From Polyrhizophydium stewartii (taxonomy: Eukaryota > Chytridiomycota > Chytridiomycetes > Rhizophydiales): a stretch of 18,018 nt of DNA. The notes beneath the pieces are model-generated. The model saw only the letters and a program-made list of their open reading frames with translations, ran no database searches and was not told where the DNA came from. The stretch's first letter is position 1, and the number at the start of each line of letters is the position of its first letter. Made by a program: the position numbers and the translations under genes. The DNA lies in contig JADGIZ010000253.1 of NCBI GenBank assembly GCA_027604665.1, forward strand, positions 1 to 18,018, in the 5' to 3' direction. Positions 1,579 to 17,801 of this stretch are shown piece by piece.

Positions 1579-4500
1579 ATGTCCACGCACAAGACCGTCT
1601 CCGAGGCGACGGCCGCCCACGATGCGTTCCTGGCAAAGGTACGACCGCATCCCACATCCAGGCCGCACGCACATGCCGCACCGCCCCGTCCGCGCGCGAG
1701 CGGCGCGCGCCTTGACGAACCCAGCCGCTCCGAGTCGTATCTCAATCGACTCGTGTGGGCCAAGGCGGCCCCGACGCCATCGCTGCCACAGCCACTGGCC
1801 TTGCCGCCTCGTGCCGGATATGCGTACTAGATCTGGCGAGGCCGTGCTTGCGCGCGCGTGTCGACAGGCGGTGGTGTTGGGCAGCCGGGCCGCGCCTCGC
1901 GCCGCCGCCCGAGGCCGTCGCCGATTCACGACAAAGCTCGGGTCGCGCTCTCGACCGGCGCTGCCGCACAGATCGCGGGCCGGCGGGGCTCGACTCGGCT
2001 GGCCTTAAAACCCGTACAGGCAGCAAAGCATCTCTGCTCGCTCCCAATGAGCTTCCGCGCATCCCTGTCCCGCAGCGACTCATCCTCCTCCTTCTGGCGC
2101 CAGCCGCTGCTGACCACAATAACCCGCCGACTTGACTCTGATTCGCAACTGCATGCAAACGGCTGATGGCCAGATCGGCTCAAAGATTGGCGTCCTGACC
2201 AAGGACGGCAGCACCGTGCCGCTCGTGTCGGCGACATTCACCGACCCGCAGGGCAAGGATCACGAGACACCGGCCAGCACCCACTTTGTCAAGCCCTTCA
2301 AGCGGCGAAACCTGCCCATCATCGCAAAGCGATTCGCCCCACGAGCCGAAAAGATGCAGAGCCATTCCAGCGGATCGGTCGCGGCTGGGTCATCGCCTGC
2401 AATGACGTCGGCCGCGTCGTCCTCACAGGCGGCCGTCGGCCAGGTTCCTCTTGGCCCCGCAGCTGTTCCATCCGTCTATCCATCGTCGCAGACACACTCG
2501 CAGATCAATGGCCACCCGCACGCAGCTGTTTTCATGACCTCCCGCTCTGGATCCATCGCCTCTTCCATCAGCGCCACTGCCGCCGGAACGGCCACGCTCG
2601 GAGCCTCGTCGTCCATCAAGCAACTAAACGCATCCGGCTCCCAAGTGCCGGCCTCGGGGACTGCCCGAGCTCATCCGTCGTCAGTCCTCCCGCAAGGATC
2701 TGGCGTCCCGGTTCCTTCACCATCCGGATCTGCTGTTGCCGCGCCGGCCACATCGAAGCAGTCCTCAGTCGTTGGCTCAAAAGACCCGCCGCTATCGCAA
2801 CCGCTTCCCGCTGCAGAGCAGGACTCGGTGCCATCCCAGGCCAACGGCTCCAGCTCGCCGACGCAGCAAGCCACGCAATCCAAGGCAGCCGCGCCGTCGC
2901 TCCAAACGGCGCTGTCCGCGGGGCCGCGACACGCAGCGCAAGGCACCCAGCCCAACCGATCCGATGATGCAGACGAGCCTTCGACGCTGCCCATCTCGCT
3001 GCCGGCATCGACTCAGCGCCTCAAAGGGCCGCAAAACTCCAAGCAGCTGATGCTGCAAAAGCAGCGCAACCTCAAGTACGGCCAGTTCCTCGCACGCAGC
3101 CTGTCCGATCAGGCCTCGCTCGGCCCAGGGGCGGCGCCATCGTCCACTCTGGCCCGGAGCGGCGCGACGATGCAAGTGACGCAGCTTGCTGCCCCTGGCT
3201 CATCAGAATCTGCGACTGCCGCTTCGGGCTCTGTGGTTTCTCCTGGCGATCGAGCAGCCAGACATGCGTCCGCCGCCGACACAATGGTGGATCCTGAGGC
3301 TTCCGGGCCGAGCACGGGTGCACCCAAGCCCAGCGGAGCAGATTCACTAGAGTCTGATCTGCAGGGACCAAATGCTGGTGACCGGGAGCTGCGGCCCCAC
3401 CCCGAACCACAGACGCGGCTTGACGGCAATCTCGACGATGCAAGCGGCCTGACCGCCGATGCCCGGTGAGAGTTGACGAGGTTTGCAGTCTGGCAGAAAC
3501 CATGTCGCAACTGACCCTGTGCCAAGTCGTAGTGATGGCCGCATACAGAGACAGCCGATTGTTGGGTCCGTGCAGACTGGCATCGCTGGCCAGCCGTCGC
3601 ACACGTCGGTGCCGGCCTCCGCTGCTCAGCGTGCATGGTCGACACCTCGCCAAAATAGTCTCACGGCAGGCTGCTATGACGGCGCTGGTGCGGCTCCGCA
3701 GCCGGCCATTGCAACGGTCGTTGCAGGCACAAAGAACACCGCCAGCGCATCGTCCGGCGATTCAGCTGCGCCAGTGCAGAACGGCTTTGCGGCCGCATCT
3801 GGCGCGACGAGCCGCGACGGCTCGCGGCCAGGCAAGGACGACAGCGATCGCGGCGAGATGCTGGTCGTCGAGGCCCCCGTGCCGCTTGCAACGCCGAGCT
3901 CCAAGCCCGTGTCGTACAGCTACGTGCTCTCAAACACAAGCGGCACGCAGCTCGAGAGCAACATGCTGCGGCGCATCCGCGAGTGGACTGTCTGGGAGGT
4001 CGCCATGCTGCGCGAGCTCACGCGCATGATCGAGCCAGTCTACGCCGCCGACAAGCTGTACGAGGCGGCCGCATACGGCCTCGACCGCGATTCTGACGGT
4101 GACGGCGCGGCCCCGTCGGACGCCGAGGCCGGATCCGGCTCGGACAGCCGTGATGCGTTCTCGCGCGACCCGCTGTGCCTTCAGGACCGCGACCGCCATC
4201 GCGACCGCGACATCCGCACCAGCCACAGCCACCACGGCGTGCGCGTCTCGTTCAAGCTGTCCGATTACGACGTCAGCGGCCGCAGCGGATCCGTGTCGAT
4301 GCGCGCGCCAGCACACAGCAACGTGCACCGCCGCAGCGCGCATCTGCAGGCCCACACGCACGCCCAGCAGGAACAGCAGCAGGCTGCCACTGGTGCTGCG
4401 CAGACGCTCGGGCAGGGATCACGTGCGACCGCAGATCCCGGAGCGGGTGCTGGCGCGCAATCTGCGAGCCGCCGCGCGGCAGCCAAGGCCGGCGCCGGTG

Positions 4501-5525
4501 TCACCGTCGTGCAGGCTCCAGGCAGCTCCACGTCGGCGGTGCCACTGCAGCCTGGCGCCGCATCGGCGTCAGCGGTGTCGGCGCTCGCATCGTCAGCGTA
4601 CCATCCTGGCATCGTGCGTGCGTCGCAGACACAGGCGGCCGCTGCAGCCGCATCTGTGCCCGGGGCATCTGCATCTGCATCCGTTGGATCCGTGGCCTCT
4701 GCAGCGGGAGTTTTTGGCATCGGTGCAGCTCCCGGGGCACAACCCGGCATCGACCCGTCGACAGCCGACGTCTTTGGGTCCTTTGTTCAGTATGGCTTCC
4801 AGCCCACGCCGCAGCACTATCCGTACATGCGCAACCTGCCGCCATCGATTCCCAACGGCACATTCAACGCCACGTTTGTCAACTCGAAGCAGTACATCTC
4901 GTCGCCCGCCGTGCACGCCCAGCACGCCATCCCGAAAGCAACGGCGGCGTCCAAGCAGCCAAAGCTGCCTGTGCGCAAGAGCCTGAGCCGCATGCCCACG
5001 CCGGCGGCCGTCACGCCTTGGGGATCCGACTCGGGTGCCACGCCAAAGCGAAAGACACGGCCGCAACAAGCTGGCTCGCAACAAGGCACATCACAGTCAC
5101 AGCAAGCACCAGGTCAGCAGGCACAGCAGCAACAGCAGCAGCAACAGCAGTCGCAGCAAGCGGGAAAACAGCAGGCGGGCAAGTCAAAAGAATCTGACGA
5201 CGAGGACAGCGACTATGACGCCGACGGGCTCGTGCCGACCGAGTATCTGCTCGACGAGCGGATCGTGTTGCTCAGCAGCAACCACGCGGCCGAGACGCTT
5301 CCGGCCCCGGAGCCCACCGCGCAGCCAGACATTGCACCACAGCACGTACCACAACCCGCGTCCGATGCACAGCTCGACGCCCACTCGACAACTGCGATCG
5401 AGTTCTCCAACAAGTCGTGGGACGCCCGCGGATACAGCACGCAGATGGCCGACGGCGACGGCATTGCAGACTTTTGGGCACAGAGCCTGACCCTCGGCAT
5501 GAACCCGTCCGAGTCGCTGCTTCTT

Positions 5526-5556
<31 letters not shown>

Positions 5557-6645
5557 GCACTATCGGCACTGTCACGGACGTAGAAGGCGAGCCGAATCCG
5601 GGCGAGTCTGCTCAGCGAGCTGCTCGTGCGCTTCCAAAGCGGGCAAAGGCTGGTGCACCGCCTGGGCCTGCGGATGTCAAGCTCGGCGGGCTCGGCCCGG
5701 ACAAGGACAGCGACGACTACCACGCCAAAGTGAGCATGCCGCTCGCAGTGATCTGTGTGGCGGGGACGGGACTGACCACGCCTCACACGCAGGTTGAGAA
5801 GCGCAACCGCCAGAAAGAATACAGCGAGCGTGTGCGCAGCATGGCGCTTGCGCAGCCGCGACCAGTCGACCGACTCGCAGTGGTAAACGAGACGCACTCG
5901 ACTCCGCTCAATGAGGTTGCGCCAGACAGCGATCCCGCCGACCAGGTGCAAGAGTCTGAACTGTCGTGCGCCGACGCACTCGAACAGCACGATTCAGGTG
6001 CCCCAGGCCCCCCGACGCAGCAGGAGCAGCCGCAACAGCAACCACACCCGCTCGCGCGCTCGGGCTCGGCAACCAAGACGCGGCTGCCGGTGATCGCCGC
6101 ACGCAACCAGGTCGCGGAGCAGCTGGCCGAGGCGGCCGCCCGACGCGAGAAGGTGCGTGTCGCCACGGCCATGCTATTCATGTGAGCAGCCCGCGCGCCT
6201 GGAGCCATGCACCCGCCCGCCCTTACTGCCTCGCACTCCTGCGCACGCGCGCGAACCAGCACGCGCGGCGTTGCCTGCAGTGCACAGATGCAAGCGCCTG
6301 CTGACCAAACAACGCGCCTTGCACCGCCGATGCCCGCAGATGAAGAGCTACGCCGCAGGCATCCGCAAGCCGGCGATCCCGCGCAGCTCGCCAAAGACGG
6401 CTTCGGCAGCCGCGCTCTCTGGCGCCGGGTCACGTTTCCCGCCCATCTCGTCAGCCAAGCGGCGCCAGCTCTCGTCGTCGGCGCCTGTCTCGGCCAGCGC
6501 ACTCGATCCGACCGCGTCGCCGACCCCCGGGGTCGCGCAGGGGCTTCCCGATCACGGCGCGGCGGCCGAGCTCCAGCGCCTCGAGAAGGAGCACCTGCGG
6601 GCCGTGGCCGTTGCAGAGAGCATCCGGAGAGAGCTGCGGCTGTGA
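1579..6645 (+). CDS. Large low-complexity protein, unrecognised (five exons, about 1404 aa)
   Basis: Proposed exons are 1579-1638, 2174-3465, 3533-5729, 5793-6152 and 6340-6645; they join in frame. Internal introns have clear donors (gtgaga, gtgagc, gtgcgt), CTGAC branch sites and TAG/CAG acceptors. The first exon is least certain: an in-frame ATG at 2153 could be the start instead. Most of the protein is Ser/Ala/Pro/Gln-rich and probably disordered. Short ordered-looking islands are: the N-terminus up to the basic KPFKRRNLPIIAKRF; a helical stretch around 3952-4065 (LRRIREWTVWEVAMLRELTR); a conserved-looking PYMRNLPPSIPNGTFN near 4823-4870; an acidic patch before GLVPTEYLLDERIVLL near 5225-5270; and C-terminal helices. 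The last two exons hold two related basic motifs, KEYSERVR and KSYAAGIRKPAIP. These faintly recall the K-x-Y-A-x-x-I-x-K-P motifs of ciliary JHY-type proteins, but that is weak. I assign no function. Confidence 0.7.
1639..2173 (+). other. Long first intron (535 nt) of the unrecognised gene
   Basis: This stretch separates a 20-codon first exon (AAG|gtacga donor) from the main body (gatggccag acceptor). It is several times longer than the other introns here. No reading frame in it resembles a protein, and codon content looks random despite open frames caused by high GC. It may hold 5' regulatory sequence, or the real promoter and 5' UTR if translation starts at the ATG at 2153. No repeat or RNA gene was seen in it. 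Confidence 0.4.
5115..5159 (+). repeat. CAG/CAA tract coding a polyglutamine run
   Basis: Mixed CAG and CAA codons give nine consecutive glutamines (5124-5150), with flanking Q pairs broken by Ala and Ser. It sits in the disordered middle of the large unrecognised protein, just before its acidic segment. The CAA interruptions should make it more stable than a pure CAG tract. Confidence 0.9.
5529..5558 (+). repeat. GGC microsatellite coding ten glycines
   Basis: Eight GGC codons followed by GGT GGC code for Gly10, directly after the Leu4 stretch of SESLLLL in the large unrecognised protein. It is an in-frame trinucleotide run likely to vary in length between strains. Confidence 0.9.
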
Positions 6646-6733: not shown

Positions 6734-9700
6734 ATGTCGGCCAGCGCCACAAACAAGACCAGCGCCTCCAACCGCCTTGGCGGGCTCTCCCCCACGGACA
6801 ACATCCATAGCGCTACCAAGATGCAGGACCGCAACCGTTCCACGGCCTCGTTCGACTCGTTCGCCAGCAAGTCGGGCCGCTCGACGCCGATCATGACGCG
6901 GCTCATCGGGTGCACAACGCCATCGGACATCGACGACGCTGTTGGCCCCGGCGGCGGCAAGATTCCCGTGAGCCAGGCTCCTGCGGGAATGGCTCCTCCG
7001 CAGGTTCAGACAGCCAGAGGCTCTCCCCCGTCACGCAATAACTCGAGCCAGGACTCACAGCCACCTCGAAACGTGACAGCCAACGTCGTCCAGCTTGACG
7101 AGAGCCAAGCCAAGATCAACAAGCTCGAGGAGAGCCATACCCAGGTGAGCCCCAAACGCTTGGCGCGCAGTGCTCGCCGCTCCAGCCAGCGCTGATCCGC
7201 ATCAGCAGCACCGCGAAGAGCTGCTCGAGAAACTCAAGAAGGCAGTGGACCGTATCGACAGCAAGCCTCCCATCTCGAAGGGCGAGATCAAGAAAATCGT
7301 CAACGGCATCGTCGAATCGTGCATTAATGTTCTCGACTGTATCAAGGACGTCGAAGCTGCTACCGAAGCTGCTGCCAAAGCTGCCAAGCAGGCCAACAAC
7401 AAAGCACTCGCTAAAGCTTCGTACGGTCCGCACTTGGAGGATGTGTTCAAGGCCGTCAAGTCGGGCGTCAGAGCTGCATCCGAGGTGCGCTGCGTGCGTG
7501 TTGTCCATATGCGTCTCGATCTCAGTGCTGACCATCGCCGTGCACATGCTTGCAGAATAAGGATACTATCGCCACGGTACTCGACACGCTTGTCAAGCAG
7601 CTCAGTCCCAGCATTTCGATGCCAAGCGCCGGCGAGATCGGCAGCGCGCTCAACAAGGCTAGGTCGCTGACTGACTTCATTGAGCAGCTCAACCGCTCGC
7701 GCGATCCGCACCTGAAAGGCGTCAAAGCTGCCACGCGCTTTCTGGCTGCGAATGGCCTCGAGATCGCCTCGACCATTGTCAATGTCGCCAAGGTCGCCGC
7801 CGACTTTGTGCCCGTGCCGGGTCTTGCCATCGCCATCGGAATCATCGACAAGATCCTCAAGAACATCGGCGACAGCCGCGATGCACCCAAGATCATGCAG
7901 ACGTTCTGCGTGCACCTCGGCGAGATCAAAACCATCATTGCGCCAATGACTGACCAGAAATTCTCGGCCGATGTGCGGCGCAAGTGCAGCGACCTTGTCG
8001 CGCTACTCAAGGAGGCGGACGCGGCTGTCGAGCGCGCCAAAGCCGACGCAAAGACATGGCGTGCGCTCCTGGGCGGCACCAGTACCAAGATGAACGCGCA
8101 GATCGAGTCGCTGCGCAAGAAGCTTGACAGGATCAAGGAGCTGCTGTCGCTCGCCATGCAGGTCGACAGCGCCATGATGCTGATGCGCATGGCCAAGCAG
8201 CTCAACATCATCGATGTCAAGGCCGACAAGATGCTTGCATGGGTGTCCCTGTGCCGCACCGCGCGTCTGCCTGTCGTGCGCCGCTAACCTGTGCACTCGC
8301 CACTGCTGCAGACTGCTTCGCCCGCGCACACTGGTGCTGCGGCACAACGACTTTATGATTGACGATGAGTCCTTCCAAGAGGACAAGGGAGGCATTTTCT
8401 GCACGTTTAATGCCATGATGGATGGCAGTCCGTTTGTGATCAAGGAGTTCCGCGACGGCATCGACAGCCGTAAGGACGAGATCGAGGCCGAGGCGCACCG
8501 CTGGCTCAACGCCAACCACCCGAACCTGCTGCAGCTCACGGGCATCTGCCTCACCGAAAACAAACAGACGGGTCGCGGGCCATTCATTGCTCTTCCGTTC
8601 GTCAAGCACGACCTCAAGTCGTTTGCTGCCGCGAATCCTGATCTCGGCATGGACAACAAGCTCAGAATCCTGCTGCGCATTGCGCGCGGGCTCAAGTACC
8701 TGCACGAGCAAGCTCCAGATGCGCCGATTGTGCACGGCAGCTTGACCATGCGCCATGTGCGCGTTGGTGCGTAGATGCTGCAAGCCACGATTCAGCTGCT
8801 TGCGTGCCACGTTGCTGACAGCGGGTTGATGTCTGAGCGCAGAAATCAAGGAGCGCATGGTCGATGATGTGCGTGAGATCCAGGTCACCAAGGTGCTGAT
8901 TGTGCCAGCTGTCGGAATCGGCAAGCCCAGCAAAACCGATTCCTACGCGGATGCATTTGCCGCCCCGGAGGCAGCCAAGGCTGGATCCAAGCCAGATGCG
9001 AAGCATGACATTTTCTCGTTCGGCGTCATGGCGCTGTCGATCGTGCTTGGCAAGGAGCCGGCCCAAGTCAGAACCTCATATCTTGACAATCCAGAAGGAT
9101 TTGACAGGCAGCTATTCGATTTATTCATTCAAGCTAAAATGCAGATTCCGAACATCCGCCCGAACCTGGACCAGTTTATCTCCAGGCTTAACAACAAGCT
9201 CAAGATGGGTGCGTTTTGCATAATCATGCCTCTGTTTTCGAGGGATCGCTGACCCTTTTCATTTTCTGCAGAGCCTGAGCTCGCCCGTCCCGGTGCATCG
9301 GACATTGAGCTTCTCTGTGCTGCGTTCCCAGACTGGACCAGGGATAGCGGCATTACATTAAGCAGCAACAATCCACACGGCGATCTTGTGTTTATATTTG
9401 ACACAACAACGCAGCGCAGCACGGTCAAATGGCGACTCGATTGGGACGCCGAGCACAACTTGACTGCCCTGTGAGTGTACGCTTGCGCGCCATGCACCTT
9501 GGGAGGCTGCTACGGGCGGTGCTGATTTGTGCTGCAGCCGTCTCACAGCCTCAGGAATCTCTGGCGGCATTCCTGAGGATCTGGGTCGCCTGACTGAGCT
9601 CAGGACGCTGTGAGTTGCGTTTGGCTGCGAGCGACATGCTGCTTGCACTGCTGACCAACCGGGCGGCAGCTGGCTTGACCAGAACGAGTTCGACCGCGAG

Positions 9701-11374
9701 ATACCTGTCAAGCTCTTTGGACTGCGTAATCTGACGTCCTTGTGCGTGCATATTGGTGCGCGACGTCACTGCTCATGGGCTGACAGCACGTGGTGCAGGC
9801 GTATCGGCCAGAACAGGCTCAAGGGACCGATTTCAACTCGCATTTCGAAGCTCACACAGCTTGTCGAGCTGTAAGTTGCGATCGCCAGGCTGATTTGCAG
9901 GCACTGACTGTGTGCTGACAGCAGCACAACAGCGACATCTCTGGCTGCGGGCTGGATGAGATTCCAGGTGCCCTCGCAAGCCTCAAACAGCTCAAGATTC
10001 TGTGCGTTTCATGCGCAGCCATAAGGCCATGCATCCGCCACGGCAGGACTGACGTCCATGTGCAGCAATCTGTCGGGAAACAACATCAAGGAGTTGCCCG
10101 AGCAAATCGACGAGATGCAGCTGCTCGAGATTCTGTAGGATGCGCGTGTTCTTGCTTGCAGCACAGCATCTGATTCTGACACCAGCCTGTGCCTCAAGCG
10201 ACCTCTCTGACTGCCAGATCGAGAAGCTCCCCATCACAAGCATGCAGAACTTGCAGATCCTGTGAGCCCAGGAGCCACGACTTAGCTTCTGAAAATGCAC
10301 ACAGGCTAACATTACAAATCAGCGATATCTCCAAAAAACATCAAACTGGAAGTCTCAGTTCAGCAGCTCAGCAGTCTCATATTACTTGAGACTCTGTGAG
10401 TAATCTTGCTTTGAGTTACTGCATGAATGCCGATGCCTAAAATCGACGCTGTTCCAGAGACATCACAGAGACTGCAACAAAAGAAGTCCCGTTCTCATTT
10501 AGGGATCGAGATGTGCGTGTTATGTGAGTTTTCACGCCAGGCCCTGTCATGTTGGATGTCATCAGTCTGGCATTCTCTTGCTGGCTCTGCAATTGCACCT
10601 TACCCAGTGCATTCTATGCGTGGCCTGCATGGCATTCTAGCTTACAAGACAAAAGCCCAACAGAAGGCTGGAGCTACGTCAAGCCGGAAGACAAGGCAAA
10701 GGGGCACAGCAATCCTCCTGCTGAGCCAAAGCCTGAACAGACTGCCGCAGTAGCTAGGTTTGTCCAGCATATCGTGGTGCAAACCGTATAACGCAAATGC
10801 TGACAAGACAAAAGCCAAAAATGGAGACCTGAAATCCAACAAGAAAGAGGAGCTCAGGTTTGTCACAGCCTGCCTCTGCAGATATTCTGGGCTTAAGATG
10901 CTAACCTGTAGCGTTCATTTAGTCGACCCGATTCAAATAGTATTAAGGGCTTTCAGGTCAGCGCAGAACAATTTAAGGGCTTCAATGTCGCGGCCGAGCG
11001 ACAGGGCCTCGGTGAAATCATACAAATGAACATGAAAGGCGCGCTGACGCGGGCGGCAGACTTGCCCCCGCGTTAGTCGCTTGATAACGACAGACGACTG
11101 TGAAGTACCTTGTGCTCGGAAGACTACACGGACACCTCACCGTCAAAATCCTGACCATTCCGCCATTAGCTATCTGCAGAACAACAAGCTCATCGATCTG
11201 CCACGCGAGCTGGGCGAGCTGACGCAACTCAAAGACCTGTGAGTCGCCGCATCAGGATTTGGGTTGCATCTCCCTTTGCTGAGCCTCCGCCACAGTAACG
11301 TGAGCGACAACAAGTTCAAAGTTAGACCTAAGTGTCTTGACGAATTGCCAGAAAATGTCAGGGTCTTGGAGTAG
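6734..11374 (+). CDS. MLKL/HeLo-like bundle + pseudokinase + LRR protein (frameshifted in LRR exon 7)
   Basis: Proposed exons are 6734-7144, 7206-7484, 7556-8250, 8312-8766, 8843-9208 and 9272-9470. LRR exons follow at 9538-9609, 9670-9741, 9799-9870, 9933-10001, 10066-10134, 10199-10261, 10323-10395 and 10458-10523. Then come 10641-10757, 10923-11075, 11170-11238 and 11296-11374 (TAG). Residues 1-137 are Ser-rich and disordered; about 138-450 is an all-helical MLKL-N-like domain; about 468-735 is a pseudokinase; LRRs start near 802. The expected role, inferred from MLKL, fungal HELLP and plant MLKLs, is a sensor-switch-executioner that acts at membranes. Exon 10323-10395 has one base too many and reaches an in-frame TGA near 10386. 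Without that excess base the exon total is 3378 nt (1125 aa). The donor at 8251 (gtgccg) was chosen over 8243 because only it, or 8245, keeps frame. The ATG at 6734 lies 88 nt after the previous stop. The gene is either a recent pseudogene, a six-LRR short form, or intact with a sequence error. Confidence 0.75.
7206..8250 (+). other. MLKL-N/HeLo-like helical-bundle domain
   Basis: This spans two exons, 7206-7484 and 7556-8250, roughly residues 138-461. A charged amphipathic helix (REELLEKLKKAVDRI) leads into a series of predicted helices. The hallmark is the hydrophobic LEIASTIVNVAKVAADF followed by VPVPGL (residues 315-320) and another helix (AIGIIDKILKNI). Fungal MLKL-N-type domains carry a similar PVPGL turn before a helix that packs in the bundle. 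A long coiled-coil brace-like region follows (TKMNAQIESLRKKLDRIKELL, then helices rich in Met). In MLKL and HELLP this domain binds and permeabilises membranes after the C-terminal sensor is triggered. The similarity is judged by eye from pattern and position, not by alignment score. Confidence 0.65.
8312..9208 (+). other. Pseudokinase domain
   Basis: Two exons (8312-8766 and 8843-9208) carry a protein-kinase fold. The beta3 lysine is kept (FVIKEF, K506), with a helix-C glutamate in IEAEAH (E520 or E522), NHPNLLQLTG, and ARGLKYLHEQ. Then HGSL (603-606) stands where HRDL should be, so the catalytic Asp is gone. No DFG follows: VTKVLIVPAVGIG occupies the site. The APE motif survives as AAPE (653-656), as does the helix-F motif KHDIFSFGVMAL. 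The glycine loop is degenerate (EDKGGIF). HG in place of HRD is also found in mammalian MLKL (HGK). Phosphotransfer is therefore unlikely, and nucleotide binding through K506 is possible. The domain would act as a conformational relay between the LRRs and the helical bundle. Confidence 0.85.
9538..10523 (+). repeat. Eight leucine-rich repeats, one per exon, all introns phase 2
   Basis: Exons of 72, 72, 72, 69, 69, 63, 73 and 66 nt each code one repeat of 21-24 residues. Every boundary cuts a Leu codon after its second base, except the exit from repeat 8. The early repeats follow the plant-specific form L-x-x-L-x-L-x-x-N-x-L-x-G-x-I-P: GGIPEDLGRLTELRTL, REIPVKLFGLRNLTSL, then KGPI, DEIP, KELP and EKLP at the same place. 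Introns are 57-64 nt with CTGAC/CTAAC branch sites; the sixth acceptor is an unusual AAG. Repeat 7 is frameshifted and repeat 8 (LDITETATKEVPF) is degenerate. The regular phase means whole repeats can be lost or gained without breaking the frame. Confidence 0.85.
10641..11075 (+). other. Non-LRR insert between the LRR blocks (two proposed exons)
   Basis: Two exons fit the same phase-2 rule. Exon 10641-10757 codes a Lys/Pro/Glu-rich linker (LQDKSPTEGWSYVKPEDKAK and onward). Exon 10923-11075 codes the KGF repeat region. The intron between them (10758-10922) uses a weak gtttgt donor and a CTAAC...TTTAG acceptor; it holds what looks like a decayed copy of the first exon. The donor at 11076 (gtcgct) is weak. 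GC is clearly lower than in the rest of the gene. I do not recognise either piece as a known domain. Confidence 0.4.
10942..11001 (+). repeat. 30-nt tandem duplication coding a KGF decapeptide
   Basis: Two adjacent 30-nt units (10942-10971 and 10972-11001) code IKGFQVSAEQ and FKGFNVAAER in the frame that joins the flanking phase-2 exons. The units share KGF-x-V-x-A-E and differ by conservative changes, as expected of an old tandem duplication under coding constraint. It is followed by QGLGEIIQMN. Confidence 0.6.
11170..11374 (+). other. Terminal LRR exons and stop of the MLKL-like gene
   Basis: Exon 11170-11238 (69 nt) is a clean repeat, YLQNNKLIDLPRELGELTQL, entered and left in phase 2 like the upstream repeats. 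Exon 11296-11374 starts LNVSDNKF, keeps the N at the right place, and ends RVLE then TAG as a short cap. Intron 11239-11295 is 57 nt. Clean coding repeats after the degenerate middle argue that the gene was full-length until recently. Confidence 0.8.
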
Positions 11375-13196: not shown

Positions 13197-15088
13197 ATGC
13201 TGTCGAGCTCCATCCTCGCGGGCCTCTACGCGGCCGAGTGCGTCGCCACGGCGCTGCTGACGATGACGGCGTTCGCGAGCACCCGGCACGTCCGCGGCCT
13301 CATCCCGCGCGCGCTGTCGCGCAAGCGGCTTGCGCAGGCGTCGACGTTCGTGACCGAGTTTCCGCAGTCGGCGCTGGTCGGCAAGCTGGCCATGGTGGCG
13401 TACTGCATGTCCAACGGCGTCTTTGAGCTGCCGGGCATGACGGCACTCTACTGGTTCGACGTGCTGCTATGCCTCGTGCTGTGGGGCCTGTTCCTGCAGG
13501 CGTACTTTGCCAGGTACCCGGTCTATGAGCAGACCAAGTTCTACAGGAACTCGACGTCGACGGAGCCGCCGCTGTTCTTCACGCAAGTGGCGCCGCGCGC
13601 AGGCTGGGCGGTCGGCGTGCCGGCGCGCACGCGGGCAGCCGGGCGGCCGGGCGTGCCGGGAGGCGCAGCTCGCGCGGACCGGCACGCAGCGCTGCGGCGC
13701 GACCGATCCTGTCGTCCGGCGCCTCGTTACCGCTCAGGCTCGCCTTGCTCGGACACCGGCTGACGCATCGCACTCGCACCGCACTCGCACCGCCCTCGCA
13801 CCGCACCACGCCGCACCGTACCGCAGCATCTCGTTCTGGTTCCGGTTCCTCAACCCCATGTGGGAGGCGTCCTCGCGCCACCTCGCCGTCTACGAAAGCA
13901 GTGCGTTGCCGCGATGTGCCGAGGAGCGCACTCGTGCTCCACGAGCGCTGACCCGCTGGCGCAGTCTGCTATGCGACGCCTGAGGAGATCGAAGAGGCCG
14001 GCGTCAAGGCCAAGTACCAGCTCTCGCTCGACATCTTCCACCACTCGGACTACCCCAAGAACCGCCCCGTGCTGGTGCGTGCCTGCGCCTGCGTCTGCCG
14101 TGCCGTCGGCGCCTTGCACGTGATTGTCGGCCGATCTGGTCACTGACGCAGCGGCCTCGCGCAGATCTACGTCCACGGCGGCTCGTACCGCGGCGGCTCC
14201 AAGGACTCGCGCCCGCCGCTGCTGTCGTACATGGCGCTTAAAAAGTACATTGTCGTCGCCATCAACTACCGCCTCTCGCCCTCGGTCAACTACCCGACGC
14301 ACGTCATCGATGTCAAGCGCGCCATCCGCTGGGTGCGCAACAACATCTCGCTCTACGGCGGCGATCCGTCGTTCATCACGCTGGTCGGCGTCTCGTCGGG
14401 CGGCCACCTGGCAACCATGGTCGCCCTCACCAGCGGCGAGCGCAAGTACCAGCCGGGCTTTGAGGACGCGGACGTGTCGGTGCAGGCGGTCGTGTCCATC
14501 AGCGGCGTGTACGACCTCACCAACTTCAAGAACCACTTTGGCTTCAACCTCAAGGGCTGGTTCAGCCGCGAGGTTGCCGGGCAGCAGGCAGACGACCAGT
14601 TCTTCCGCGACGCGAGCCCCACGCGCCGCCTCAAGGACGCCGAGACCAAGATGCACCTGACTGCCGCGACACCCGAGGAGAAGCAGGGCATCGCGCTGCC
14701 GCCCTTCATGGTTATCCAGTGCGTTCCCACCTGGCTGCTCGCGAATCTGGCTGCCGCGCGACACGCGATGCTGACGACGAGACGACGCGCAGCGGCCAGG
14801 CGGACAGCCTCGCTCCCATCTCGCACGTGCGCGAGTTCACAAGGACGTTCAAGCAGGTCACCAAGGCAGAGCTGTGCTACATTGAGCTTCCCGTGTGTTT
14901 CCCGCCAAACGCATCCTCGCTGCATCCCACACGCGCCATGCTGACAAACTGCGTCGCATGCCTCGCAGAGCGCCAACCACCTCTTCCCCCAGCTCTCGAC
15001 GCCACGCGGCCACTACATTGCGTACGGCATCGAGCCATTTGTCCGCGCCATGTACGAGAGGCACGTGGCCGCCCAAAAGGCGAAATAG
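13197..15088 (+). CDS. Membrane-anchored alpha/beta-hydrolase (HSL/BD-FAE-like esterase)
   Basis: A serine esterase or lipase acting on small acyl esters is expected. Exon 1 starts at ATG 13197 and codes two or three hydrophobic segments (residues about 5-27, 62-78 and 84-102), so the enzyme is probably a membrane protein. Later exons are 13827-13900, 13965-14074, 14165-14718, 14793-14892 and 14969-15088 (TAG). The oxyanion HGG is in YVHGGSYRGG. The nucleophile elbow is GVSSGGHLA. The acid is the Asp of HGQADSLAP, restored across the 14719-14792 intron, and the base is the His of SANHLF. NYRLSP and DVKRAIRWVRNN are typical of the family. The junction from exon 1 to 13827 is unresolved: conserved-looking coding continues to about 13600, but no good donor there keeps frame. 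A short exon may be missing from my model, or there may be an indel. Substrate unknown. Confidence 0.85.
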
Positions 15089-15344: not shown

Positions 15345-16822
15345 TCACAGCTCCATGCTGTCATTGGAGCGCACCAAAGCGGGCCTACTCGCGCCGCCGA
15401 TGGGCCACACACGCACGGTCCTGTCGTACGACACGCTGACGAGGGCGCTCTGCTCGCCGTCAAACACAATGTGCCTGACAAGCCCCTCGTGGCCAACGAG
15501 CTTGTCGACGATGCGACCCGAGGCAGCGTGGAAGACGAGGATGCTCCTGTTGTCGCTCGAGGCAAAGAGGTAGTTCCCCGAAGGATGCCAGCAGCACGAT
15601 GCCTGCGTGAAGCCGTCGGCCTCGACGCCCCACAGGTCACGCACGATGCGCGATGTTCGGGTCTGGAAGACAATGATGCGGCCCGACTTGGCGTCCGTGT
15701 AGACGGCCAGATGCGCACCAGAGGGCGACGGCGCCATGTGCACCGGAGTAAAAGACACCCACGCGTCGCCGTTGGCGTTGAGGTTGACGGGCGTGGCCTG
15801 GAGCGACTCGGCGTCGTCGAGGTCAATGTAGTGCAGGTTGTTGTCTTCGCGCACGCCAACAACGAGCGTCGGCGAGGGTGTGGAGGCGCTGCCGGCGCGC
15901 AGGATGCACATGGACTCGACGGCGCCTTTGAATGTGGTCGTGTGGCGCTTGGTGTACGACGGCGGATGCGGGCCGCCTGGGGCAGATGCGAGGCGGTAGA
16001 TGTTGACCGAGCGATCGTGCGAGCCCGTGACGAGCCACGAGCCGCAGGGCGAAAAGGCGCACTGCGTGACGTACTTGGCGTGGCTGCGGGCCCAGTCAGC
16101 CAGGACCGTCCGGGCGGCAAGATCAACGAGATGCACCGAGCCGTCCATGCACGCCGTGGCCGCGATGGTCGGGATGCTCGGGTGGACGGCGACGGCGAGC
16201 ACAGGCGACGCCGGATGGCCGAGTGTGGCGAGCAGCTGCCCCGAGGCGGCGTCGCTGATGCGCAGCGACTTGTCGGCCGACCCTGTAAGCAGCACGCGGA
16301 CGTAGTCGTCGGGCAGGGCGTGCTCGGGGAAGACGGCCGCGGGCAGGGTGGTTGGGGCGACGCAGAGGATGTTGGCGTGGTGGATGCCGTGGAAGACGCG
16401 GGCCGCGTCGGAGCTGGTGGCCAGCGGAGCCGCGCCGGGCGCCGGGACCAGCCCGCTGTCTAGGGCGCTGCGGGCACACGAGGAGAGTCAGCGCAGCGCA
16501 CGGCCGAGGCTGGGCGCGGGCGGCAGCGGCGCACGCACTCCTGGATCGCGAGCTGCTTGAGACTCGAGTGCAGGGTCAAGTCCTGCAGCTCCTCGATGAC
16601 GCCGACCAGCGGGCGGGACGTGAGCGGCACGAGGTCGGCGATGTCGGCCAGGGGCTCTGCGGCCTCGCGCTCGAGCGCCGCGAGCGTCTCGTGCAGGTTG
16701 TTGTCGGCGAGGAAGCCGCGGACGAGGTGCAGCGCCGTCGCCTCGACCCTGTTCGTTGCAACCGAGCTGAGCATCAAGTGGTGAAGCCGCTCAAAGTCGG
16801 ATCTGAGCCGATGCAGCGACAT
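15345..16822 (-). CDS. LisH-WD40 repeat protein (two exons, 468 aa)
   Basis: Exon 1 is complement(16539-16822) and exon 2 complement(15345-16467), with a 71-nt intron (gtgcgt donor, gctgac branch, cag acceptor) in phase 2. Residues 28-52 form a LisH dimerisation motif (ALHLVRGFLADNNLHETLAALEREA). A helical linker (IEELQDLTLHSSLKQLAIQ) is followed by a WD40 propeller that fills exon 2. Blades are visible at LLTGSADKSLRISD, ATACMDGSVHLVD, VTGSHDRSVNIYR, ASSDNRSILVF and SVSYDRTVRVW. LisH-WD40 proteins generally act as dimeric scaffolds, for example in chromatin, E3-ligase, splicing or microtubule complexes. I cannot place this one in a named family; it lacks the CTLH/SMU1-type sequence. It converges on the esterase gene (256 bp between stops) and diverges from the Nudix gene. 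The start at 16822 is the first ATG of the clearly coding stretch. Confidence 0.85.
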
Positions 16823-16958
16823 CAGCTGGCAGCATGCACTGGCGAGACGGCCGCATGCGAGGCGATCCAGAGGCGGCTTGGAAGCTGCGTGCGGGTGGGA
16901 CTGTCGGGCAGCGGCGAGGCGACACCAGGCAGCGCAGCTGCACCAGAGTTGCCCAAAG
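16823..16958. promoter_or_regulatory. Shared divergent promoter region, LisH-WD40 and Nudix genes
   Basis: Only 136 bp lie between the two divergent ATGs, so the core promoters and 5' UTRs must share or overlap this space. It is GC-rich. I saw no TATA box or CCAAT box in it. Co-regulation is possible but not shown. Confidence 0.5.
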
Positions 16959-17801
16959 ATGCCGAAATCCTCCCGTCTCTTCGTCCAACTGGGCCGGCAC
17001 GCGGTGCCGCTGACGGCGGGCCACGGCGCGCTGGAGCCGCTGTTGCCTGCGGTGCTCGAGTTCCGGCCGTTCCAGCAGTGGGCGGCGCGGCTCGGGCGGC
17101 AGCTGGAGCGGCCGATGGGGTCGCGGGTCGAGGTGCGCGGCGTCCGAGTCAGCGACGTGGACATGTTTGGGCGGCGCATCGGGTTCGTCAAGTTCACGGC
17201 GGGCATCCGCTGGGCCGAGGACGGCAAGCCGCTGCCGGGCATCGTCTTCTGCCGCGGCGGGGCCGTTGCGGTGCTGCTGATCGTGCGGCCGAGCGACGCG
17301 GCGGCCGCCGTTGCCGACCAAGGCGGCAACGACGACGACAGCTGGGTCGTGCTGACGGTACAGCCGCGCCTGCCGGTTGCGCTGCTCGAAGACCCGGCGC
17401 TGCCAGCGGGCATGCTTGACGGGGACTCCAACTTTGCCGGCGTGGCGGCCAAGGAGCTCGAGGAGGAGTGCGGCATCCGCATGACGGCCGAGGATCTGGT
17501 GGATCTGACGTCGTTCCGCACGCTGGACGAGGGCGACGACGAAGGCGCGGGCGTAGACGAGACGGGGCTGTTCCCGAGCGCGGGCGGATGCGACGAGTTC
17601 ATCCGGCTATTTCTGTGCGAGAAGCGGCTGCCGCTCGCCCAGATCCGCGAGCTCGAGGGCCGCGAGGCCGGGCTGCGCGACGAGGGCGAGCGCATCCGGG
17701 TCAAGCTTGTGCGGCTGCGGGACCTGTGGCGGTCGACGCGGGACATGAAGGCGCTGGCCGCGCTGGCGCTGTACGGCATTCGGCGCGGCGGCGCGGCGTG
17801 A
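16959..17801 (+). CDS. Nudix sugar-nucleotide diphosphatase (NUDX14-like), single exon
   Basis: It is expected to hydrolyse nucleoside-diphosphate sugars (ADP- or UDP-glucose type) to NMP and sugar 1-phosphate in the cytosol. The ATG at 16959 opens a 280-residue intronless frame. A Nudix box is at residues 151-173: G151 starts it, and K165-E166-L167-x-E169-E170-x-G172-I173 forms the catalytic helix. The preceding PAGMLDG and the replacement of the first box Glu resemble plant NUDX14 (PAGMLD) and vertebrate NUDT14 more than MutT-type enzymes. Upstream, VEVRGVRVSDVDMFGRRIGFVKF and GIVFCRGGAVAVLLIV fit the N-terminal beta domain, and TVQPRLPV lies before the box. The C-terminal DEFIRLFLCEK and IRVKLVRLRDLW match the family. 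The Gly/Asp-rich loops at about 175-205 may be lineage inserts. Confidence 0.9.
   Translation: MPKSSRLFVQLGRHAVPLTAGHGALEPLLPAVLEFRPFQQWAARLGRQLERPMGSRVEVRGVRVSDVDMFGRRIGFVKFTAGIRWAEDGKPLPGIVFCRGGAVAVLLIVRPSDAAAAVADQGGNDDDSWVVLTVQPRLPVALLEDPALPAGMLDGDSNFAGVAAKELEEECGIRMTAEDLVDLTSFRTLDEGDDEGAGVDETGLFPSAGGCDEFIRLFLCEKRLPLAQIRELEGREAGLRDEGERIRVKLVRLRDLWRSTRDMKALAALALYGIRRGGAA

Follow-up and report, generated by a model that had tools for sequence, protein, structure and literature searches.

A chytrid protein family joining a putatively MLKL-like helical bundle, a dead kinase and leucine-rich repeats, with a probably damaged member in Polyrhizophydium stewartii

Introduction

In animal MLKL, a helical N-terminal region precedes a pseudokinase in which the VxK lysine is kept. 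Plant MLKL and other proteins that join an MLKL_NTD to a kinase, such as wheat Pm13, likewise carry a bundle and a kinase in one protein; the Pm13 kinase is of the plant RLK/Pelle type, and no leucine-rich repeat (LRR) tail is described for these proteins in the passages cited (PMC10951266). In fungi, the MLKL-related bundle superfamily comprises the HeLo, HELL and BaMLKL effectors, whose bundles are described, in the passages cited, on NLRs, on amyloid-motif partners or on kinases (PMC9815663, PMC12881547), and HELL domains have been noted in proteins that also contain a kinase or a pseudokinase (PMC12881547). MLKL-family homologues with Sel1 repeats are reported from Glomeromycotina only (PMC8778642). 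Fungal immunity is described mainly via NLRs and allorecognition (PMC10197012, PMC12881547). LRR pattern-recognition receptors are reported to be absent or almost so in fungi, and the chytrid Batrachochytrium dendrobatidis is reported to have four genes that combine LRRs with a kinase and lack a membrane segment (PMC2939053). A bundle, a pseudokinase and LRRs within one protein are not described in the cited passages of PMC9815663, PMC8778642, PMC10197012, PMC12881547, PMC10951266, PMC11218826, PMC2939053 and PMC12258605, and no LRR-tailed dead-kinase form was found in the open-licence papers that we searched.

Here we analyze a gene in an 18,018-nucleotide stretch of the chytrid Polyrhizophydium stewartii (contig JADGIZ010000253.1, here C253, of a 12.86-Mb assembly in 690 contigs), hereafter the window, together with its relatives. 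A first-pass annotation of the letters had proposed that positions 6734..11374 encode all three parts in one protein. Judged from the sequences now compared, an architecture of bundle, dead kinase and LRRs is real and family-wide. With animal MLKL the family shares a predicted helical N-terminal region with MLKL_N similarity and a pseudokinase that keeps VxK, but it differs in its LRR tail, in extra N-terminal disordered and helical parts, and in a bundle match that stays sub-threshold. The MLKL family has a bundle and a pseudokinase only, whereas here LRRs follow; the loss of catalytic residues is common to both. Bundle and kinase in one protein recall plant MLKL and Pm13, from whose descriptions the LRR tail sets the family apart, and the bundle is likened to the fungal HeLo/HELL/BaMLKL superfamily. 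Like the Glomeromycotina homologues, the family occurs in early-diverging fungi and combines an MLKL-family match with repeats, but these are LRRs and not Sel1 (PMC8778642). The chytrid LRR-kinase proteins share LRRs and kinase in one protein without a transmembrane segment; they are likened by description, not by sequence, and the passages cited mention neither bundle nor pseudokinase (PMC2939053).

Results

Layout of the window gene

A multi-exon gene on the + strand begins at 6734. In our gene model, 12 exons between 6734 and 10261 stay in one frame through residue 938, provided that intron 3 takes an unusual donor, and encode an N-terminus, a region predicted to be helical (residues 138-459), a TKL pseudokinase and LRRs, in that order. 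The features are as follows.

6734..7144, +, exon 1, residues 1-137, Ser/Thr/Pro-rich and presumably disordered (gene model)
6893-6913, +, short motif MTRLIGC in exon 1 (N-termini compared by eye)
7206..7484, +, exon 2, residues 138-230, first helical part, alignable but variable among homologues (gene model)
7556..8244, +, exon 3, residues 231-459, core helical bundle, with MLKL_N similarity at 7931-8200
8239..8311, +, intron 3 at the paralogue position, where the paralogue donor GT is AT
8312..8766, +, exon 4, pseudokinase from the N-lobe through the catalytic loop (PK_Tyr_Ser-Thr, E 7.1e-9)
8843..9208, +, exon 5, pseudokinase C-lobe (Pkinase, E 1.4e-4)
9272..9470, +, exon 6, linker with DIELLCAAFPDW (alignment with homologues)
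9538-9609, 9670-9741 and 9799-9870, +, three LRR exons of 24 residues each (gene model)
9933-10001, 10066-10134 and 10199-10261, +, three LRR exons of 21-23 residues (gene model)
10323-10395, +, further LRR-like exon, whose frame shifts close to an A run and then meets a stop (gene model, reading frames)
10986-11129, +, dispersed repeat of ~144 bp, found seven more times, whole or in part, on four contigs
~11169-11238 and ~11296-11374, +, possible terminal LRR exons with a stop at the end (by eye; tie to the upstream exons unproven)

Three splice sites of the model are odd, namely the intron-3 donor, one AAG acceptor and one GTAGGA donor; as an alternative intron-3 donor the model takes the GT at 8245, which yields two extra residues. 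The proposed order in one protein was borne out by the exons from 6734 to 10261, and by homologues with the same order in P. stewartii and Entophlyctis helioformis. The proposed extent held in part: the gene is in frame to 10261, but 10400-11160 is not securely coding, given the frame shift and stop, the end of homology with the nearest paralogue at 10269 and the dispersed repeat. Further downstream, the possible terminal exons (11169..11374) resemble the C-terminal ends of the homologues P0007 and P0010.

Residues 1-137 have no Pfam match. By eye, look-alikes of the exon 1 motif, often with a cysteine, occur in the window protein and in P0002, P0004, P0006, P0010, P0016 and P0018 (forms MTRLIGC, VTRLFGC, IDRLFGL, YDRLACG, YDRLICG, FSRLLWSC and FKLFG), and none was seen in P0014. 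From its sequence, the motif is a possible lipid anchor or docking site.

A mosaic and probably damaged copy

The nearest paralogue, on contig C135, is 91.9% identical to the window gene over 2978 alignment columns. The identity alternates between blocks, from 69% (7303-7452) to 98% (7453-7602), 75% (7603-7747), 97% (7748-7897), 74% (8348-8497) and ~95-100% (8648 to 10147). Intron 2 is identical in the two copies, and the protein identity of exon 2 is 47%. The dS values are 0.52, 0.20 and 0.18 for exons 2-4 and 0.04 and 0.02 for exons 5 and 6, the last two of which have dN values of 0.007 and 0. Synonymous divergence tracks the identity blocks, a pattern that suggests gene conversion among paralogues and fits it better than diversifying selection. 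The window gene is a near-duplicate of the C135 gene with a mosaic make-up.

Taken as sequence, the window copy is probably damaged, and we consider the chance that it is a functionless pseudogene, or a decaying duplicate of the C135 gene, to be somewhat better than even. The intron-3 donor is GT in all seven paralogue loci in which it could be read (C135, C409, C161, C57, C660, C512 and C218; ten loci were examined and the exon end was missed by the pattern in three), and it has been lost to AT in the window. The frame shift and stop at 10323-10395 and the loss of C135 homology beyond 10269 point the same way, as does the dispersed repeat that lies in the remaining 3' part. This repeat begins TGTCGCGGCC, is up to 99% identical to its copies on C482, and has no Rfam match in a scan of the window; the other copies (L044-L047) are two on C482 that are 98% alike, an inverted pair on C202, and part-copies on C299 and C521. 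On the other hand, the modelled exons are free of stops until the last LRR exon, another GT could serve as the intron-3 donor, and the frame shift at the A run may be an assembly error. The low dN relative to dS in exons 5 and 6 would also speak for a functional gene, although recent gene conversion alone would explain it. A decaying window copy is compatible with each of the two leading functional readings discussed below, and statements on function rest on the more intact-looking relatives in the genome and the databases.

A family in two chytrid genera

A protein search returned 13 sequences, comprising eight from P. stewartii, two from E. helioformis and three plant kinases (E 9.8e-4 to 4e-3). 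The 24 sequences returned by a profile search divide into 18 records of the family, ten from P. stewartii and eight from E. helioformis, and six others that have LRR and/or kinase domains. The family total is 19 records, since P0010 came from the protein search only and is missing in the profile search. Probable double annotations of single genes account for P0002/P0003, P0004/P0005 and P0007/P0008; P0022 (bundle) and P0021 (kinase and LRRs) have adjoining locus tags and are maybe one split gene. For P0018, at most one LRR is recognised, and that below the threshold; P0019 is named as a partial record.

The first-pass annotation had recommended searching chytrid proteomes for the same order, and the order does recur, within single annotated proteins of both P. 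stewartii and E. helioformis. According to the NCBI taxonomy, Polyrhizophydium belongs to Rhizophydiales and E. helioformis to Chytridiales. The recurrence in single proteins of two chytrid genera indicates that the three-part architecture is not due to chance. In the seven homologues that were scanned whole with Pfam, kinase and LRR families exceed the cut-off in every case.

Within the host genome, the bundle exon has 13 matches on 10 contigs: C253, C135, C409, C161, C57, C660, C512, C114 (two), C218 (three) and C474 (weak). Named P. stewartii proteins correspond to three of these paralogue loci, P0001 to C135, P0002 to C409 and P0006 to C161; the pieces above 90% identity are mostly 97-100% identical, with two P0006 pieces at 96.6 and 92.6%, and an additional P0001 piece is 90% identical to C135. 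On C474:1-9000 (L042), the weak bundle match is followed by a kinase with HGD, and with NFN instead of DFG, which is perhaps intermediate in sequence between the active and the dead forms.

The kinase has lost its catalytic residues

In the window, the VIK lysine is kept in exon 4, as by eye is the alpha-C Glu, and HRD is replaced by HGS; in exon 5, DFG is replaced by PAVG and APE is kept. The motif table of the kinases has 17 rows, in which the window is represented by exon 3 only, P0022 lacks a kinase, and P0003, P0005 and P0008 were dropped as duplicates. The VxK lysine is present in all 15 readable rows, the HRD Asp is lost in all 14 readable rows (HGS, HGN, HGA or HCS), and DFG occurs in no readable row. 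The proposal of a dead kinase was therefore upheld by HGS and PAVG in the window and by the missing Asp in the homologues, and catalytic death of the kinase is secure as a prediction from sequence, for this gene and for the family. It belongs to the TKL superfamily, as PK_Tyr_Ser-Thr exceeds the cut-off in window exon 4 and in 7/7 homologues.

When a profile of five dead domains was compared with the PDB, the best four sequences were MLKL (60.2 to 59.6 bits, E 1.7e-15), followed by 6lba, which we take to be a plant MLKL, and then by MLKL again, SymRK, IRAK3 and BAK1; MLKL makes up eight of the best 60 of 789 rows. The margin is narrow (60.2 bits vs 58.9 for SymRK, 58.7 for IRAK3, 57.7 for BAK1 and 57.4 for MLK4), and the loss of HRD and DFG may by itself favour pseudokinases in this ranking. 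As a control, a profile of five active domains gave no MLKL among the best 60 of 1247 rows, in which an EGFR entry and TNNI3K come first and MLKs, CTR1, B-Raf and MET also appear. The two profiles align with each other at E 9.4e-44. A tree was built from 23 kinase domains, with duplicates and short rows dropped. One branch (100/99) separates the 14 dead kinases from the rest, and another (100/100) unites them with five active chytrid kinases against four plant kinases. Kinship with chytrid TKL kinases is thus clear; MLKL is absent from this tree, and a special kinship with MLKL is not demonstrated.

Active-looking relatives with the same layout

Unlike the family, TKL kinases elsewhere in the genome have HGD and/or DFG, and they often stand in tandem; these active-looking kinases lie on C623, C418, C311, C562, C649, C518, C366, C310 and C575 (L054-L062). 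A tblastn comparison, for which three loci supplied the queries, found a bundle of the C623 type, a kinase and linker/LRR sequence in order in four of nine further loci (C575, C310, C418 and C366, the bundle match on C366 being 52 residues long). On C575, the kinase, the linker and plant-like LRRs lie within one open frame. The other five of the nine have kinases in all cases and some bundle match in four; tblastn gave no linker match in them, and they may still have LRRs. Because the C623 bundle itself is close to the end of its contig, the kinase expected to follow it is out of view. Linkers like that of exon 6 (DIELLCAAFPDW) are found upstream of the LRRs in several relatives and downstream of active-looking kinases. 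The same layout is present in one genome with kinases predicted to be active and with dead ones, and by analogy we hypothesize a RIPK3/MLKL-like relay between the two.

The helical bundle is probably related to MLKL and HeLo

MLKL_N matches window exon 3 at E 2.4e-5 and 24.3 bits, below the Pfam cut-off of 27 bits. It is the Pfam family matched most often by the family bundles, 7 of 12 at E<=1; at E<=0.01 it is found in 4/5 whole proteins of P. stewartii and in 0/2 of E. helioformis, and one of five further E. helioformis proteins reaches E<=0.05. The absence from most E. helioformis proteins indicates that the match fades in diverged members. The strongest control for the MLKL_N similarity is a six-frame scan of the whole 12.86-Mb genome, which gave seven matches. 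The first, at 27.3 bits, is a bundle on C623, where TKL kinases stand in tandem, and it is the only one among the C623-type bundles above the cut-off; ranks 2-6 are the family loci C253, C135, C409, C57 and C161, all below the cut-off, and rank 7 is C123. Genome scans with RPW8 and PigL_N gave no family locus among their matches. Of the 12 members, 11 have a PxPG motif in the core of the bundle.

The two best matches of a bundle profile in the PDB are entries of At5g66900 (E 0.5 and 0.73, not significant), which we take to be NRG1, a carrier of an RPW8-type cell-death domain. Aligned by hhalign with five C623-type bundles, the family bundle gave a probability of 0.9% and E 0.058, likewise not significant. 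The fold check that had been suggested earlier, run on exon 3, returned an AF2 model that is helical and of low confidence (pLDDT 45); in the model of P0002, the bundle has a pLDDT of about 30-50, and Foldseek with the low-confidence bundle model gave nothing at E<=0.001. The description of the bundle as MLKL-like thus stands as a sub-threshold resemblance, and kinship with MLKL/HeLo is likely because of the sub-threshold MLKL_N sequence matches.

LRRs and membrane spans

The window LRRs are encoded with one repeat per exon and phase-2 introns, and the LRR superfamily is represented in all seven homologues by LRR_8 and LRR_14 above the cut-off, in agreement with the LRR tail first proposed. 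The plant-type label given to this tail is apt for the first repeats, to which plant-type character is limited: the first window LRR has a plant-like GxIP, and in P. stewartii the later repeats mostly have a spacing of 23 residues, whereas they stay mostly at 24 residues in P0015, P0016, P0017 and P0020 of E. helioformis. The P0002 model gives most of the LRR part a pLDDT of 85-96 and an LRR fold; structurally, this part is matched best by a Leptospira LRR protein and by SHOC2, and plant receptors rank lower. These are the closest known structures for the LRR part of the family; we know of no kinase and no MLKL-like bundle in SHOC2. In the eight proteins scanned, no 19-residue stretch has a mean hydropathy >=1.8, so a membrane span is not evident.

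The mosaic and damaged state of the copy, its membership in a family, the mostly non-plant nature of the LRRs and the active-looking kinases in the same layout had all escaped the first-pass annotation.

Discussion

We tentatively interpret the family, with a probability of roughly 45%, as cytosolic LRR-gated executioners of the MLKL type, each comparable to an MLKL with a built-in sensor. The sub-threshold MLKL_N similarity of the bundle and the PDB ranking of the pseudokinase, by its narrow margin, both point to MLKL. In the resting state, the bundle would be restrained by the pseudokinase and the LRRs. The trigger would be a ligand bound by the LRRs or an active TKL relative that phosphorylates the pseudokinase, and the freed bundle, if it has an MLKL/HeLo-type fold, would oligomerise and attack a membrane, resulting in cell death or a defence signal. 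The purpose of such a relay would presumably be immunity.

This interpretation competes with, and is only slightly ahead of, a plainer one to which we assign a comparable probability, still short of an even chance: the proteins would be cytosolic TKL/LRR scaffolds or sensors specific to this lineage, with a helical region that serves for oligomerisation and does not attack membranes, and with a dead kinase that scaffolds active TKL relatives in ordinary signalling. Chytrid proteins with LRRs and a kinase and without a membrane segment are on record (PMC2939053), and active-looking TKLs that carry bundles of another type and LRRs are present in the same genome; the tree that unites dead and active chytrid kinases against the four plant kinases also suits a scaffold, as do the sub-threshold MLKL_N matches, which most of the scanned E. 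helioformis proteins lack, and the low confidence of the bundle models. A generic module sits less easily with the preference of the bundles for MLKL_N over other Pfam families, with the five family loci among the seven matches of the genome scan and with the near-universal PxPG core. That the proteins are instead NLRs or plant-type LRR receptor kinases proper is very improbable. The order of an executioner-like N-terminus, a central switch and an LRR tail does resemble that of NLRs, and the first LRR is plant-like, but whole-protein Pfam scans of seven members found neither NB-ARC nor NACHT, and, against a plant receptor kinase, the kinase precedes the LRRs and no membrane span is evident. 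Membership in either class was accordingly rejected, which leaves an analogy of layout.

Extending the executioner interpretation, we can imagine, as a speculation that we think unlikely to hold in full, a chytrid class of NLR-like intracellular receptors in which a death-executing bundle and an LRR sensor are linked by a kinase, alive or dead, in place of the nucleotide-binding switch, and in which active, RIPK-like members trigger dead, MLKL-like members of an expanding and recombining family. A recombining family of this kind would open a chytrid cell-death or immune pathway to direct tests, and would be an example of a kinase in the place of the NLR nucleotide-binding switch. Active-looking and dead versions together would constitute a natural pair in the style of RIPK3/MLKL outside animals.

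Other features of the genome and the window

Genome scans for nucleotide-binding domains gave nothing above the Pfam cut-off for NB-ARC and a sole match above it for NACHT, at C7:38523-38858. Upstream of the gene, the window contains a 902-residue open frame (3477-6185, +) that is rich in Gln, Ala and Ser and has no Pfam match at E<=0.001. Its other features, all assigned with Pfam, are the following.

367-1362, +, CDC20/Fizzy-like WD40 protein
14147-14944, +, alpha/beta hydrolase
15345-16487, -, WD40 protein
16785-17801, +, NUDIX-like (20.9 bits, slightly below the cut-off)
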